Source: Sphingobium herbicidovorans (GTDB taxonomy: Bacteria; Pseudomonadota; Alphaproteobacteria; Sphingomonadales; Sphingomonadaceae). From it: a stretch of 64,000 bases of DNA. How positions within the stretch are numbered: the first letter of the stretch is position 1; each line of letters starts with the position of its first letter. The position numbers and the translations under genes are program-made. The stretch lies in the NCBI RefSeq assembly GCF_002080435.1, contig NZ_CP020538.1, positions 2,785,501-2,849,500 on the forward strand. Reading direction: 5' to 3'. Below, piece after piece: positions 27,069 through 33,966 of this stretch. The notes under the pieces were generated by a model that was not told where the DNA came from, ran no database searches, and worked only from the letters and a program-made list of their open reading frames with translations.

Positions 27069-27371
27069 ATGTCCTATGATCCTGGCGCCCTGAATGCCGC
27101 TCTTGCCGCCGCCGTCGGCGAAGATATCGCGCTGATCGCGGACTTGCGCATCGCCTTTATGGAGAGCGCTGAGCGTCAGCTTGACCTGCTGCGCAAGGCG
27201 CAATCCGATTCCAGTTGGGAACTTGCGTCGTGGCGCCTGAAGGGGCTGGCGGCCAGCTTCGGCCTTACGCACCTGATGGCGCTGGCCGACGAGGCAGCCG
27301 ACTGCGCTCGCGGCGATCCCCGGATTCTCCGGCAATTGCGGATGGCGATCGACCGGCTTCAGCAGGGCTGA
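27069..27371 (+). CDS. Hpt-like protein lacking the phospho-accepting histidine
   Basis: 100 residues, all alpha-helical. The segment SWRLKGLAASFGL aligns with the Hpt/CheA P1 motif H-x-L-K-G-x-A-x-x-x-G, but the His position is Trp55 (codon TGG at 27231-27233). The rest of the motif (Leu, Lys, Gly, Phe-Gly) is kept. It cannot accept phosphate in the usual way and may bind a response regulator or another partner passively. It is first in a plus-strand series ending at 31142, whose last gene is also a degenerate phosphorelay protein. Confidence 0.65.
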   Translation: MSYDPGALNAALAAAVGEDIALIADLRIAFMESAERQLDLLRKAQSDSSWELASWRLKGLAASFGLTHLMALADEAADCARGDPRILRQLRMAIDRLQQG

Positions 27372-27449
27372 GTCGCTGCGCGCTTGCACGATGGCGACAG
27401 CCTTGCGAAAAGGCGTGAGTTTACAAAAACGGGTCGGTTCCATCGCAGC

Positions 27450-28616
27450 ATGACATTTGCGGCCATTATCAGCGCCAGCCGGGCGTCCAGCGATTCCACG
27501 GCGGCGCTCCGCGCGAGCCTGCATTTCGCGGGACAGACGCTGGTTGAATATCAGGCGCGACAGGCGGCGCGGGCGGGCGCGGACCGTATCATGATACTGG
27601 TGAGCGTCATCACGCCCGCGCTGTCGCAAGCGGTCGATCGGTTGAGTGCGGACGGAATCCCTGTTGCGCTTGTCCGCGACATGGTGTCCATGGTCCGGGA
27701 TGCGCCGCGGGATAGCGACGTGCTGCTCGTGGCCGACGGCATCATTGTCGCGCAGGCCCATTTTGACGCGATCGCAGAGCGGGAAGGTAACGCGCTGCTG
27801 GTGACCGATGACAGCCGGGCCAGCGCTCCGCTGGAACGGATCGACGCCGGGCAGCGCTGGGCGGGACTGGCGCGGATCAGCCCGGACCTGCTGTTCGGCA
27901 CGCTGGACATGATTGGCGATTGGGACCTTTCCCTGACACTGGTGCGGGCTGCCGTGCAGAGTGGCGCGCGGCGCGTTACCGTGCCGCAGGATGACCTGAT
28001 GACCGGCCGGGTCGCACTGGTCGATGGTCAGGCACAGGCCGATCTGGTGGCGCAGGCGGTCATGTCCGCAGGTTCAACGGCCAAGCGGATGCGGGGCGCG
28101 GGCGAGCATTACATTCTGTGCCCGGTAGCCCGGATGTTGAGCCCGGCGCTGATGCGCACGCAGGTTCCCGCGACACAGGTCCGTATCGCGGCGATGGCAC
28201 TGGGCGCGATATCATTGGTGCCCATAGAGCTGCTCTGGCCAGCCGCCGGTTTCCTGATGTTGTTGCTGGCGCTTGGGCTGGCGGAGATTGCCGATCGGCT
28301 GGACGAATTGGCGCTGCGATCGCCACCTGCCGGGTGGACCGCCTTTGTCGTGCCTTTTTTCGCGGTAGGCGGGATATCCCTGGCGGGGGGCAGCGTGATG
28401 GCGACATGTCTGGCGCTGTTGCTGGCGATCGTCCAGCTCGCCGACCGGTGGCGCAAGACGGGAGCAGCGAGGCCCTGGATGATCTTCACGCCCGCCAGCG
28501 CGATTTTCCTGCTGCTGCTGACGGCGATATTCGGCGCCATCAGCCTGGGTTTCGAGCTGGCGATGCTGGCCGTCATCGCCTCGGTCGGCGCGATCATCCT
28601 GCTCAAGCGCGCCTGA
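27450..28616 (+). CDS. Nucleotidyltransferase-like protein with C-terminal membrane domain
   Basis: 388 residues from ATG 27450 (a longer reading to 27384 adds an unlikely tail). The N-terminal half looks like a GT-A/NTP-transferase-like fold: FAGQTLVEYQARQAARAGADRI, then a VLLVADGIIV strand and GNALLVTDD. The G-x-G-T-R-x signature of active enzymes is not clear, so activity is doubtful. The C-terminal half has about five hydrophobic segments from residue 245 on. I cannot assign a substrate. It lies 78 bases after the Hpt-like gene and 46 before the DUF2336-like gene, in what looks like one operon. Confidence 0.55.
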   Translation: MTFAAIISASRASSDSTAALRASLHFAGQTLVEYQARQAARAGADRIMILVSVITPALSQAVDRLSADGIPVALVRDMVSMVRDAPRDSDVLLVADGIIVAQAHFDAIAEREGNALLVTDDSRASAPLERIDAGQRWAGLARISPDLLFGTLDMIGDWDLSLTLVRAAVQSGARRVTVPQDDLMTGRVALVDGQAQADLVAQAVMSAGSTAKRMRGAGEHYILCPVARMLSPALMRTQVPATQVRIAAMALGAISLVPIELLWPAAGFLMLLLALGLAEIADRLDELALRSPPAGWTAFVVPFFAVGGISLAGGSVMATCLALLLAIVQLADRWRKTGAARPWMIFTPASAIFLLLLTAIFGAISLGFELAMLAVIASVGAIILLKRA

Positions 28617-28662
28617 GAATATTTCCCCTTTAGGGTTTAGTGCATTTTAAGGACGTGCGGCT

Positions 28663-29757
28663 ATGTTGGCCGTCATGAGCGCCTTTTCGTTCCTTACCGG
28701 GCCGACCGCGGCTGACAGTTGGCCGACGGCTCCCGTCCTGGCCGGCATGTCCGCCGTTCCCGTCGGCCATGCCATTGATCTGGCGTTTTTCTTCCCCAAT
28801 GAGGGGCGCGAACGCCATGATGCCCTGATGGCGGAGACGCGACGGCACCTGGGCGCGTGCGTGACCGGTATCGAGCGATCATTGCGATTCGCGCTGGAGC
28901 AGCAACCCGATGTCGCCGCCGTGCTGACGCCAAGAATGGAGGCGATCTGCTGGCCCACCATTTGCGCGCAGCCCACACTGCTGGGTCCGGCATTGCTGGC
29001 TCATATGCAGATGCGAGCGGGCGTGACGTTGCTGCTGCGGCAATTCGGGCAGCCCGATGACCGGCTTGACGAGTCTGAGGCGGAAACCATCCTGCCGACC
29101 AATGATGCCGCCGTTGCCGAAGCGATCGTTGCGTTGACAGAGGCGGAGGGCAGATGGCTTGCGCCCGGCGCTGAGGACGAACCGATGCAGCCGGATCTTC
29201 CCGCCGAGCATTTCGCCGAGCTGATGTGGACAGCTGCTGCATCCATCATGGCGCTGGTGCAGCGATCCGCATCAACCGACGCCGGCATGATGCTGCCAGC
29301 TTTCGAAAAGGCGGGATGGACGCTACTTTCGGAACATGACGAAACCAAAGGGCCGATCGCAGCGGCGGAGCGGCTGGTGCGGCGTCTGGGCGAGCGTGCG
29401 GATGCGCCCGAATTGTTGGGTGCGGCGCTGGGGCAGCGGCGATTCCTGCTCTTCGCGGCCCTGACGGCGCGCCGGTTGCGCATGGACTGTGCGCATGTCG
29501 CCGACATATTGGTGATGGGCCCGGTCGCGGAACTGGCGGCCCTGTGCCGTTCCCTCGGCGGGTCGGATGCGGATTATCGGCATCTGTTGCTGGCCCTGCG
29601 GCCGGTGCGGCCATCGCTCACCGACGCGGCGATTATCATTGAGGCCGAGCGTTATCAGGCGTTGACAGAGGCGCAGGCGGACGGTTTGGTAAATGCATTG
29701 CGCGCGCCGCGGGCGCTTCGCGCAAAGCTCGATCATTTGCGGCAGGTCACCATCTGA
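28663..29757 (+). CDS. DUF2336-like alpha-helical protein
   Basis: 364 residues, helical throughout with no membrane segment. The overall pattern, including the C-terminal RLRMDCAHVADILVMG region, is reminiscent of the alphaproteobacterial DUF2336 family, but I am not certain. AAGGA lies nine bases before ATG 28663; an inner ATG at 28675 is possible. The stop shares one base with the start of the following kinase-like gene (TGATG), so the two proteins are made together and may interact. Confidence 0.5.
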   Translation: MLAVMSAFSFLTGPTAADSWPTAPVLAGMSAVPVGHAIDLAFFFPNEGRERHDALMAETRRHLGACVTGIERSLRFALEQQPDVAAVLTPRMEAICWPTICAQPTLLGPALLAHMQMRAGVTLLLRQFGQPDDRLDESEAETILPTNDAAVAEAIVALTEAEGRWLAPGAEDEPMQPDLPAEHFAELMWTAAASIMALVQRSASTDAGMMLPAFEKAGWTLLSEHDETKGPIAAAERLVRRLGERADAPELLGAALGQRRFLLFAALTARRLRMDCAHVADILVMGPVAELAALCRSLGGSDADYRHLLLALRPVRPSLTDAAIIIEAERYQALTEAQADGLVNALRAPRALRAKLDHLRQVTI

Positions 29758-31142
29758 TGAATATGCCGGCGCATCCCGCGATCATTCGCGCGACGGTAGC
29801 GGCCAATGGGCTGCTGCTGAGCGCAGATGCGCCATTGCTGGCTCTTCAGCGAGAAGCGGGTTCGGATGTGGGAGCGGTGCTGGCGATCCCGCAACTGGCG
29901 GCGGTCGCGCGCTTGGCGTCGCGTTTGGGTGTAACGGTCTCACGCCCTGTCACTGCCGCTGCCGAACACGGCGACGTCGAAATGTGGGTCCGGGCACGGC
30001 CCGAAGCGGACGGGGTGCAGATTTCCGTCATCGAATGGAACGAACGGCCCGCCGCCCCTGCTCCAATAGATGGCGTTCGGCGGGACGCCGACATTGCCGC
30101 TGTCGCGGAAGGCTGGACCTGGCAGATCGACACCCAGCTTCGTTTTCAGATGGTGCTGGAAGGGGCGGGGGCAGAAAGCGCCTTGCCTGAGGCTCCTCCT
30201 GTAGCGGGAAGCCGATTTACAAGCTATTTTGAACTTCGGCCGGACGAGGAGGGCGATTTGCCGATCCTGCGGGGCTTTGCGCAGCGGCGCGCGTTTCGCG
30301 ACCAGATCGCCACGTTGATCGCCGAGCCGGAGCAATGCGTGCGCCTGACCGGCTTTCCGATGTTCGATCTTGCCGGACAGTTGCTCGGCTATCGCGGCAA
30401 GGCATTTCCGCTGGATCGCGCCATTTTGGCCCCGCATGTTCCGGCGGCGCCGGCAGTGGTCATCTACCCGGCCGAGTTCGGGCGGCGGCTGGACCGCTCG
30501 CTGCGACAGCCGCTGGGGCGGATCATCGCCAATGCCGATTCGATCAACGCGCAGATCGACGGGCCGCTGCGCCCCGACTATGCCGGTTATGCGTCGGACA
30601 TCGCAGCGGCTGGACGTCATTTGATGGCGCTGATCGATGATTTGGCGGACCTGCAGGCGATCGACCGGCTGGATTTTACCGTGGCCACCGAAGATGTTGA
30701 TCTGGCCGACATTGGACGGCGTGCCGCAGGGCTTTTCGTGGTCAAGGCCATGGACCGCAAGATCCGCGTCGTCGCTCCGGCGGCTGACCAATCGGCCGTG
30801 GCGACCGGAGAGTTCCGGCGGGCGCTTCAGATATTGATGAACCTGGTCGGCAATGCGGTGCGCTATGCGCCCGAGGACAGCGAAGTGCGGATCGAGACAG
30901 GCCGCGATGACGGCTTTGCCTGGATTGCGGTGATGGACCAGGGCGAGGGCGTTCCCGAAGGCAGCCGGGAGCGGATATTCCATAAGTTCGAGCGGCTGGG
31001 CCGCAGTGATTCGGGCGGAAGTGGCCTGGGCCTCTATATTTCACGCAGGCTCGCGCTGGCGATGGGTGGGGATATTCGTATTGATGACGCGCCGGGCGGC
31101 GGCGCCCGGTTCACCCTGACGCTGCCCACCAACAGCGGCTAG
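29757..31142 (+). CDS. Histidine-kinase-like protein without the H-box histidine
   Basis: 461 residues, no membrane span. The N-terminal 235 residues are probably one or two PAS-like sensor domains. The dimerisation helix reads RRLDRSLRQPLGRI: Arg247 (CGC at 30495-30497) replaces the His of the canonical H-E-L-R-T-P-L motif while Leu-Arg-x-Pro-Leu is kept. The ATPase domain is intact: N-box NLVGNAVRYAP, G1 DQGEGVP, F-box FHKFERLG, G2 GGSGLGLYIS. It resembles DivL-type pseudokinases in logic (altered H position, intact ATPase fold). It is last in its operon, followed by a terminator. Confidence 0.8.
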   Translation: MNMPAHPAIIRATVAANGLLLSADAPLLALQREAGSDVGAVLAIPQLAAVARLASRLGVTVSRPVTAAAEHGDVEMWVRARPEADGVQISVIEWNERPAAPAPIDGVRRDADIAAVAEGWTWQIDTQLRFQMVLEGAGAESALPEAPPVAGSRFTSYFELRPDEEGDLPILRGFAQRRAFRDQIATLIAEPEQCVRLTGFPMFDLAGQLLGYRGKAFPLDRAILAPHVPAAPAVVIYPAEFGRRLDRSLRQPLGRIIANADSINAQIDGPLRPDYAGYASDIAAAGRHLMALIDDLADLQAIDRLDFTVATEDVDLADIGRRAAGLFVVKAMDRKIRVVAPAADQSAVATGEFRRALQILMNLVGNAVRYAPEDSEVRIETGRDDGFAWIAVMDQGEGVPEGSRERIFHKFERLGRSDSGGSGLGLYISRRLALAMGGDIRIDDAPGGGARFTLTLPTNSG

Positions 31143-31155
31143 TCCAAGCAAAAGA

Positions 31156-31185
31156 AACGGCGCCCGGTGAGGCGCCGTTCTTCTT
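31156..31185. terminator. Terminator between the kinase-like gene and gltA
   Basis: AACGGCGCC and GGCGCCGTT form a perfect 9-bp stem with a CGGTGA loop, followed by CTTCTT on the plus strand and preceded by AAAGAA, so it can serve both convergent genes. Confidence 0.8.
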
Positions 31186-31204: not shown

Positions 31205-32491
31205 TCAGCGCTGGCTGACGGGGACGTAATCCCGTTCTGCCGGGCCGGTATAGAGCTGGCGCGGGCGGCCGATTTTCTGCGCTGGGTCCGAAATCATCTC
31301 GTTCCACTGGGCGACCCAACCCACGGTGCGGGCGAGGGCGAAAAGAACGGTGAACATCTCGGTCGGGAAGCCGATTGCCGAGAGGATCACGCCCGAATAG
31401 AAATCGACATTCGGATAGAGCTTCTTTTCGATGAAGTAAGGATCGTTGAGCGCGATCTGCTCCAACTCCTTCGCGACGTCGAAGATGGGATCGGTAACGC
31501 CCAGCTTTGCCAGAACGTCCTTCGCGGTCTTTTGCATGACGGTCGCGCGCGGATCGTAATTTTTATATACGCGGTGGCCGAAGCCCATCAGGCGGAACGG
31601 ATCGTCCTTGTTCTTGGCGCGGGCGATATATTCCGGGATGCGATCGACGGTGCCGATTTCCCGCAGCATGTTGAGCGCGGCTTCATTCGCGCCGCCATGC
31701 GCCGGGCCCCAGAGGCATGCGATGCCGGCCGCGATGCAGGCGAAGGGATTGGCTCCCGAGGAACCCGCGAGACGCACGGTCGAGGTGGAAGCATTTTGTT
31801 CATGGTCGGCATGGAGAATGAAGATCTTGTCCATCGCATCCACGACCACCGGATCGGGTTCATATTCCTCGGCCGGGACGGAGAATGTCATGCGCAGGAA
31901 ATTGGCGGTGTAGCTTAGGTCGTTGCGCGGGTAGACGAAGGGCTGGCCCACCGAAAATTTGTACGCCATGGCCGCGATCGTGGGCATCTTGGCGATCAGG
32001 CGGTGGCTGGCGATCTTGCGCTGTTCCGGATCGTTGATGTCCGTCGAATCATGGTAGAAAGCTGAAAGCGCGCCAACGACGCCGCACATGATCGCCATCG
32101 GGTGCGCGTCGCGACGGAAGCCGCGATAGAAGGTCGTCAGCTGTTCATGCACCATAGTATGGCGCGAGATGGTGTAGGTGAAGTCTTCCAGTTCCTTCTT
32201 GGACGGCAGTTCGCCGTTCAGCAACAGGTAGCTGACTTCCATGAAGCTGGATTGTTCGGCGAGCTGGCCGATAGGATAGCCGCGGTGCAGCAGCACGCCT
32301 TCATCACCATCGATGTAGGTCAGGCCGGAATCGCAGCTGGCGGTCGAAGTGAAGCCCGGATCATAAGTGAACATGCCGGTGTTTGCGTAGAGCTTACGGA
32401 CGTCAATGACCTTGGGGCCGACCGAACCATTGAGGATGCCATAATCCTTGGCATCACCATCGACCGTCAAAGTCGCAATATTGTCCGACAT
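31205..32491 (-). CDS. gltA: Citrate synthase
   Basis: 428 residues from ATG 32491 ([12 protein letters not shown]), preceded by AAGGAGAA. Active-site motifs: the His in [18 protein letters not shown], the [15 protein letters not shown] segment with the second His, and [14 protein letters not shown]; Asp lies further on. It condenses oxaloacetate and acetyl-CoA at the entry to the TCA cycle. A reading from 32512 would overlap the gltX stop and lacks a ribosome site. Confidence 0.96.
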
Positions 32492-32511
32492 CTCGTTCTC
32501 CTTAACTACCA

Positions 32512-33966
32512 TCAGCTGGCGATGCCGTTTCGGGCATCTGCAAGCCGCTCCAAGCTTTTGTCTTTTCCAAGGAGGAAAAGGACATCAAAAATCCCTGGCG
32601 AAACCGTGCGACCGGTCAGCGCCGCGCGAAGCGGCTGGGCGACTTTGCCCAACCCCAGACCGGCATCCTCTGCGACGCGGCGGATCGCATCCTCAATCGC
32701 TTCGACGGTCCAGGATTGGACAGCATCGAGAGCGTCGGCTGTCTTGCCCAACAGCTCGCGCGCCGAGTCGTCTAGCAGAGCAAGGGCCTTCTCGTCAAAA
32801 TCCAGCGGGCAATTTTTAAACAGAAACTCCGCGCCTTCGGCAATTTCGTTAAGCGTCTTGGCGCGGGGCTTCAGCGAGGGGATCGCCTGGGTAAGCAGTG
32901 CTTCGGAGTTGTCCGGCAGGGTTGCCGCCAAGCGCGCGGAAATTCGGGGCAGCACCAGCGCGGCGAGGCGGGCGTCGTCAGCCTCACGCAGATAGAAGGC
33001 GTTGAGATTTTCCAGCTTCTTTATGTCGAAGCGGGAAGGTGATCGGCCGACGCCCGAAATGTCGAACAGCTCGATAGCGCGATCGCGAGAGATCGTCTCT
33101 TCGTCGCCATATCCCCAACCAAGACGCAGTAGATAGTTCAGGACCGCTTCGGGAAGCATGCCCATTTCGTCGCGATAGGCATCCACGCCCAGGGCGCCGT
33201 GGCGCTTTGACAGCTTTGCGCCATCCGACCCGTGGATCAGCGGGATATGCGCGTAGATCGGCTCTTCCCAGCCCATGGCCTTTATAATGCCGAGTTGCCG
33301 GAAAGCATTGTTGAGATGATCGTCGCCCCGGATCACATGGGTAACGCCCATGTCATGATCATCTACCACCACGGCGAGCATATAGGTGGGCGTCCCGTCG
33401 GAGCGGAGCAGGATCATGTCGTCAAGCTCTGCATTCTGCACGACGACGCGCCCCTGCACTGCGTCCTCGATCACCGTTTCACCTTCGCGAGGCGCTTTGA
33501 GGCGGATGACGAAGGGCGCGCCTGCGGGCGCTTCGGCAGGATCGCGGTCGCGCCAGCGCCCGTCATAGCGCATCGGCTGCTTGGCGGCGCGTTGTTGTTC
33601 GCGCAGCTCAGAAAGCTCTTCGGGCGTTGCGTAGCAGCGATAGGCATGCCCGCCCGCCAGCAGTTGATTGGCGACTTCGGCATGACGCTGCGAGCGTTCG
33701 AACTGGAACACGGCGGGCTCATCGCCGGCAAGGCCAAGCCATTCGAGACCGTCGAAGATCGCGGCAACCGCTTCTTCTGTTGAGCGTGCGCGATCGGTAT
33801 CTTCGATGCGCAACAGGAACTTGCCGCCATGGTGACGGGCGAATAACCAGTTGAACAAAGCGGTGCGCGCGCCGCCGATATGAAGGAAACCCGTGGGCGA
33901 TGGCGCAAAACGGGTTACGACTTGCTTGTTCAAACCCGTTGCACTCACAGTCCTATTCCCCGACAT
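32512..33966 (-). CDS. gltX: Glutamate-tRNA ligase
   Basis: 484 residues. It has the class I HIGH-type motif ([19 protein letters not shown]), [10 protein letters not shown] and the KMSKS-type motif GAKLSKRHG. The anticodon-binding domain occupies the C-terminal third. It charges tRNA-Glu. It lies 20 bases upstream of gltA in the same direction and is divergent from comEC, with only 15 bases between the starts, so the promoters must overlap the coding starts. Confidence 0.95.

Follow-up and report, generated by a model that had tools for sequence, protein, structure and literature searches.

How should an operon be read whose kinase is named a sensor histidine kinase in public records, yet lacks the usual acceptor in 72 of the 79 genera read (the other seven have His)? 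This kinase is encoded in Sphingobium herbicidovorans, in a stretch of 64,000 nucleotides (the window) taken from a 4.24 Mb genome of 5 contigs. From the letters of the window, an initial annotation had proposed an undescribed pseudo-phosphorelay operon that uses its folds for binding or ATP-driven allostery. Among the listed papers of the open-licence PMC literature we found none on the operon.

Layout of the operon and its products

The initial annotation had described four genes in one direction with a coupled last pair, and this layout was confirmed: four open reading frames lie on the + strand at 27069-31142, and the DUF2336 and kinase genes overlap by one base at 29757. Counted from ATG 27450 for the membrane protein, the intergenic gaps are 78 and then 46 bases, followed by the overlap (Table 1). 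This ATG is the most likely start of the membrane protein, judged by its Met, which is kept in 12 of 12 aligned rows; the TTG at 27384 was not upheld. The divergent coiled-coil gene starts 79 bases away from the Hpt gene. The terminator-like hairpin pattern after the kinase matches on both strands, and the region has 5 such sites versus 3.4 in shuffles. At another locus (L252, G196:C5:102732-104024) the gltA match carries one in-frame TGA, possibly an assembly or sequence error.

Table 1. Features of the operon and its flanks, in window coordinates
Feature	Position	Strand	Basis or remark
Divergent coiled-coil protein, 892 aa	24311..26989	-	Conserved beside the operon
Pseudo-Hpt, 100 aa	27069..27371	+	Pfam Hpt match, 25.3 bits; site survey
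Hpt codon 55 (Trp), phospho-His site	27231..27233	+	
Membrane protein, nucleotidyltransferase-like and degenerate CDP-alcohol phosphotransferase-like domains	27450..28616	+	Start by conservation
DUF2336 protein	28663..29757	+	PF10098 match; all-helical model
Putative pseudo-histidine kinase, 461 aa: two PAS-like domains, DHp, HATPase	29757..31142	+	
Kinase codon 247 (Arg), phospho-His site	30495..30497	+	
Kinase codon 255 (Arg)	30519..30521	+	Conserved across the non-His set
Terminator-like hairpin, between kinase and convergent gltA	31155..31180	.	
gltA, convergent flank	31205..32512	-	Locus marker in 84/100 loci

The coiled-coil protein may be TipN-like, judging by its architecture. Among the 120 of its 202 homologues that were listed none is named TipN, the names given being hypothetical, ATPase, coiled-coil, Smc and others, and neither the profile searches nor these listed names identified a polar factor. 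A polar location of the system would be a guess drawn from this neighbour and from the ancestral flagellar link described below.

The Hpt-like protein matches the Pfam Hpt profile at 25.3 bits versus a cut-off of 24.6. Its residue 55 is indeed the Trp that had been noticed at the His site, in the context ASWRLKG, and the same segment of the His-bearing orthologue at locus L053 reads AAHRLKG. Across 76 Hpt rows the site is non-His in 72 (W 27, M 16, L 14, Q 9, and Y, F, G, E, S and V one each) and His in 4. W50 is invariant in all 76 rows, and the rest of the family motif is widely kept (R43 in 64, R45 in 62, C46 in 60, D47 in 65 and N49 in 61). The His-bearing L053 Hpt is without the R43/R45/C46/D47/N49 motif, and the window protein, with K43, Q45, S46 and S49, retains the family motif at D47 and W50 only.

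The kinase was likewise read correctly as having Arg at its His site and an intact ATPase: residue 247 is Arg, and the N, G1, F and G2 boxes are kept. Pfam gave HATPase_c at 92.9 bits and HisKA at 20.8, below the cut-off of 26.9. Similarity to solved histidine kinases begins at the DHp domain, in which LDRSLRQPL, around Arg247, aligns where a solved kinase has MSHEIRTPL and the His-bearing relatives have MSHELRTPL. The AlphaFold model, of middling confidence (mean pLDDT 71, pTM 0.44, residues 100-155 below 50), places PAS-like folds at about 10-98 and about 116-218, the DHp hairpin at 238-302 and the CA domain at 312-457. Together with the PAS_4 match of L062, a relative that bears His, this model suggests two PAS-like regions.

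The DUF2336 protein matches PF10098 (40.1 bits versus a cut-off of 34.6), and its model is all-helical (pLDDT 79), with no match in the PDB at E <= 0.001. The domain was found in 78 of 142 genomes of the class and is often multi-copy in sister families; searching DUF2336 in the open-licence PMC literature returned no match.

The description of the membrane protein as nucleotidyltransferase-like stood, with a weak NTP_transf_3 match below the cut-off. The window protein also aligns with a fusion protein at L053 that bears a CDP-OH_P_transf domain (Pfam) and, judged by sequence, it is a descendant of a CDP-alcohol phosphotransferase-like fusion. CDP-alcohol phosphotransferases carry the signature D-x2-DG-x2-AR ... 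G-x3-D-x3-D. Its first part, DxxDGxxAR, is absent in 91 of 94 membrane-protein rows, the window included, and present in three (L053, L059 and L070); the whole signature, as a pattern written in this form, was found in 0 of the 94 rows. The transferases at L053, L059 and L070 may therefore themselves be unusual. At these three loci (L053:1562-10291, L059 and L070) a myo-inositol-1-phosphate synthase gene set is joined to DUF2336 and the kinase. The L053/L059 locus encodes an Hpt, a CDP-alcohol phosphotransferase, the CDP-OH_P_transf fusion, myo-inositol-1-phosphate synthase, a nucleotidyltransferase, a Wzi-type protein, DUF2336 and the kinase, and L070 has the inositol genes and a kinase without His. 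The set is a candidate inositol-lipid locus in low-branching family members.

Conservation and constraint across the family

Kinase matches at E <= 1e-35 were obtained in 326 of 397 family genomes and 80 of 96 genera, and 71 of the 397 genomes gave no match at this threshold. The loci read come from 79 genera, mostly with one or two genomes each, some of them incomplete; the relatives found with the kinase mostly carry the name Sphingobium (14 loci, of which three are MAGs with broader names). Gene order is well kept among 100 kinase loci, some of which end at contig ends and others of which are genuinely without a gene: DUF2336-kinase in 91, membrane protein-kinase in 92, Hpt-membrane protein-kinase in 72, all five genes from coiled-coil to kinase in 66 and all six with gltA in 55. 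By profile, 8 loci with the membrane protein and the kinase lack DUF2336, and 14 with the coiled-coil and membrane-protein genes lack Hpt, so neither is strictly needed. In Sphingobium lactosutens (L042), S. abikonense (L043) and S. naphthae (L044), DUF2336 is missing between the membrane protein and the kinase, although its neighbours are otherwise conserved. The four operon genes are under selection, with dN/dS of 0.08-0.23 over five Sphingobium loci (a rough NG86 estimate at dS of about 0.8-1.5); gltA gave 0.04-0.05 over four of the five.

The acceptor site is non-His in 93 and His in 8 of 101 kinase rows. L144, fetched as a kinase candidate from one of the 71 genomes without a match, proved to be a different locus; it is excluded here as elsewhere and counted only in the 102-row figures. 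Twelve residues replace His (P 42, R 24, A 8, Q 6, K 4, D 2, E 2, and N, S, G, V and T one each), and in the most divergent rows the residue assigned to the site depends on the alignment: at L070 it is Gly by pairwise and Asp by multiple alignment, non-His either way. Conservation of Trp55 and Arg247, which the initial annotation had put forward as a check, holds near genus level and fails family-wide, where the constant is "not His". Arg247 occurs in 44 of 44 aligned rows (43 from the 120 homologues listed, plus the window), and Gln in L049 and L050, from genomes that belong to the same GTDB genus. For the following figures we used 82 non-His kinase rows, a set that omits nine Sphingobium loci and eleven rows that bear His, branch low or lie off the locus. 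Site 247 ranks 51st in variability among the 224 columns of this set.

Around the variable site, other positions are strongly held. N362, N366, D394, G396, F408, G421, G423 and G425 of the ATP boxes are invariant in 102 of 102 kinase rows. At position 248 the Glu has become mostly Ala, Val or Ser in non-His rows. The helix after the lost acceptor has a new conserved sequence, RIIANAE, with I256 and A260 in 82 of 82 rows and Arg255 in 78 of 82, where the six His-bearing rows compared have Ala. By these alignments the kinase has lost its phosphotransfer features, while its nucleotide features and the new helix sequence are kept. H288, considered as an alternative acceptor, is invariant in the 82 rows and appears structural, because the His-bearing L053 and L235 sequences have it too.

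Among 75 loci with both proteins, neither has His in 71, the Hpt alone in one (L154) and the kinase alone in none; the loci are related, so this pairing is a matter of consistency and not of 75 independent events. Orthologues with His at both sites, which the initial annotation had set against its reading, were found at the remaining three (L053, L059 and L062, the last with a short and weak Hpt match of 28 bits). They lie low on the gltA tree, which places the loss and leaves the pseudo-state unrefuted.

Ancestry of the kinase and loss of the acceptor

To examine the ancestry, 29 outgroup genomes were searched with the His-bearing L053 kinase and 20 loci from six sister families were fetched, with kinase cores 43-55% identical to L053 in these 20 genomes. 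A DUF2336 gene stands beside a His-bearing kinase at all 20, indicating one loss of His, or a few, within the family. On this comparison, the pseudo-state arose from an ancestor with His by loss within the Sphingomonadaceae-type GTDB family.

The gltA tree (100 rows, without nine close Sphingobium loci) puts six His rows low in the family, together with two non-His rows (L070 and L143), and unites a 77-row set (SH-aLRT 98) of 76 non-His rows and the His-bearing L109. The His/non-His label changes 4 times on this tree and 2 times on the kinase tree, which was built with the site and its neighbour removed and carries a long-branch warning. L109 falls within the non-His clade by the gltA tree and outside it by the kinase tree. 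Four His-bearing family members (L062, L065, L067 and L071) are grouped with outgroup rows by the kinase tree, so transfer or a wrong root is possible. L131, like L109, has His at the acceptor site, here in the non-canonical context DHSFKPSI; the kinase tree nests it within the non-His clade, an apparent reversal without the usual acid. The His-bearing sister families, the His-bearing basal members, L070 and the non-His genera form a natural series, which makes testable what purpose the kinase fold has after phosphotransfer loss, and whether the invariant ATP boxes are a nucleotide switch.

The ancestral pair often adjoined flagellar genes. Matches to flgK and/or flgL (here, "FlgL" is our name for the flagellin-family gene beside flgK) occur at 9 of the 20 outgroup loci (L233, L236, L238, L243, L244, L246, L248, L249 and L250), with FlgK_D1 and flagellin domains by Pfam at L249 and L244, and at the His-bearing family loci L062, L067 and L071. 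A FlgK match was found in all 8 His genomes and was missing in 35 of the 78 non-His genomes checked. A solely flagellar role today was rejected on this count, which points to a present role independent of the flagellum even though the ancestor was often beside flagellar genes.

Candidate mechanisms and known systems

Phospho-sites have been lost in two proteins, yet selection has kept their genes, so the proteins probably serve partner binding, with ATP as a switch. The preference of the initial annotation for binding or nucleotide-driven allostery over phosphotransfer is supported by the two lost sites, the conserved operon and the intact ATP boxes. We think it probable that the pseudo-kinase is a nucleotide-gated binding switch that works without phosphotransfer, DivL- or NifL-like in its logic. 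In this account the operon began with an ancestral DUF2336-histidine kinase pair, using ordinary phosphorylation and in many relatives adjoining flagellar hook genes; within the family the kinase lost its acceptor His and the following acid, the Hpt its His and the membrane protein its DxxDGxxAR. PAS-like input and putatively bound ATP or ADP may now set the conformation of the DHp and CA domains, which in turn may bind or release a partner, such as a receiver protein or a second kinase, close to the membrane protein. DUF2336 and the pseudo-Hpt would act as optional helpers or competing surfaces. A tight complex is made doubtful by the loci that lack Hpt or DUF2336 and by the poorly kept motif of the window Hpt. 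A broader proposal, that the whole operon turned from catalysis to binding, losing kinase, Hpt and transferase motifs, gaining new conserved sequence and forming a nucleotide-gated, membrane-linked assembly beside phosphorelays, is possible but tentative; it is weakened because little of the motif is left in the window Hpt and because the ancestor-like transferases depart from the signature.

The invariant ATP boxes, F box included, would also suit a kinase acting in trans, whose intact CA domain would pass phosphate to the His of its partner kinase in a heterodimer and whose own acceptor is dispensable. The acid after the acceptor His belongs to the substrate helix, so its loss would cost nothing in trans, and 33 HATPase_c places occur in the genome at E <= 1e-8, which need not all be histidine kinases. 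This reading is nonetheless unlikely, since it leaves the loss of the Hpt site unexplained and the operon encodes no second kinase. We give less credence to a regulator acting as a phosphatase only, which would use nucleotide as a cofactor to remove phosphate from a response regulator and would not need the acceptor His. The retained nucleotide boxes and DHp helix are consistent with it, as is Gln at H+4 in 48 of the 82 non-His kinase rows; however, the usual residue there is Thr or Asn, seen in just 3 of 82 (2 T, 1 N) at a variable position, and the H+1 acid is lost. Relict genes drifting towards loss could explain why motifs are gone from three proteins and why DUF2336 and Hpt are missing at some loci, but dN/dS of 0.08-0.23 within Sphingobium disfavours such drift, as do ATP boxes invariant in 102 rows and presence in 79 genera, and we consider it very improbable. 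It is hardly credible that the kinase is the sphingomonad DivL orthologue. Both are PAS-bearing, kinase-like proteins that have intact boxes and lack the acceptor His, and the DivL structure 4q20 matches the window kinase at E 5.9e-18; yet 4q20 is only its ninth PDB row, with fold ranks 28 and 30, and the same genome encodes a protein (L288) whose best PDB hit is 4q20 at E 1.9e-41, a stronger match that speaks against orthology.

By analogy, DivL would be the nearest alphaproteobacterial case of the switch that we favour, and NifL the nearest described logic. In PMC4211667 the Caulobacter pseudo-histidine kinase DivL is described with a conserved Tyr at the site (Ala in one species). DivL and the operon kinase share a PAS and DHp-CA fold that lacks the acceptor His and keeps the other boxes, and both are alphaproteobacterial. 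Alignment, model and fold matches all show such a kinase fold without acceptor His in the operon protein. The two differ in that Tyr is conserved in DivL and 12 residues occupy the site in the sphingomonad kinase, whose operon also encodes a pseudo-Hpt, DUF2336 and a degenerate membrane transferase and whose genome has a separate DivL-like protein. Azotobacter NifL, also PAS-bearing and kinase-like, binds ADP/ATP and controls its partner through binding, with no kinase or phosphatase action, according to the review PMC11509896. In the Foldseek search with the kinase model, a NifL-NifA complex chain (9qq6_A) came second, with low TM-scores of 0.31 and 0.29. Unlike NifL, which regulates the activator NifA, the four operon genes show no transcription factor or receiver by Pfam.

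The DUF2336-histidine kinase pairs of the six sister families (L232-L251) share the adjacent pair with the operon and differ from it in keeping His (20/20) and in their flgK and/or flgL matches (9/20); the Hpt profile found no match within the fetched stretches of their loci. The HmrABCX system of Caulobacter resembles the operon in having putative Hpt proteins that work with a kinase, and CCNA_03265 is reported to lack the conserved His; it differs in that HmrA, a hybrid kinase that spans the membrane, is proposed to belong to a working relay, and the word DUF is absent from that text (PMC11481889 throughout).

If the broader proposal is true, the operon would add a further pseudo-kinase hub next to DivL, standing beside and not running through the phosphorelays of the cell. 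The H-box pattern was recognised at 9 of the 30 loci read for the other kinases of this genome. L288 (L288:1-1830, G000:C1 near 336780) is DivL-like, with SYELRTPL and Tyr at the His site, so that a single cell allows comparison of two distinct kinases that lack His.
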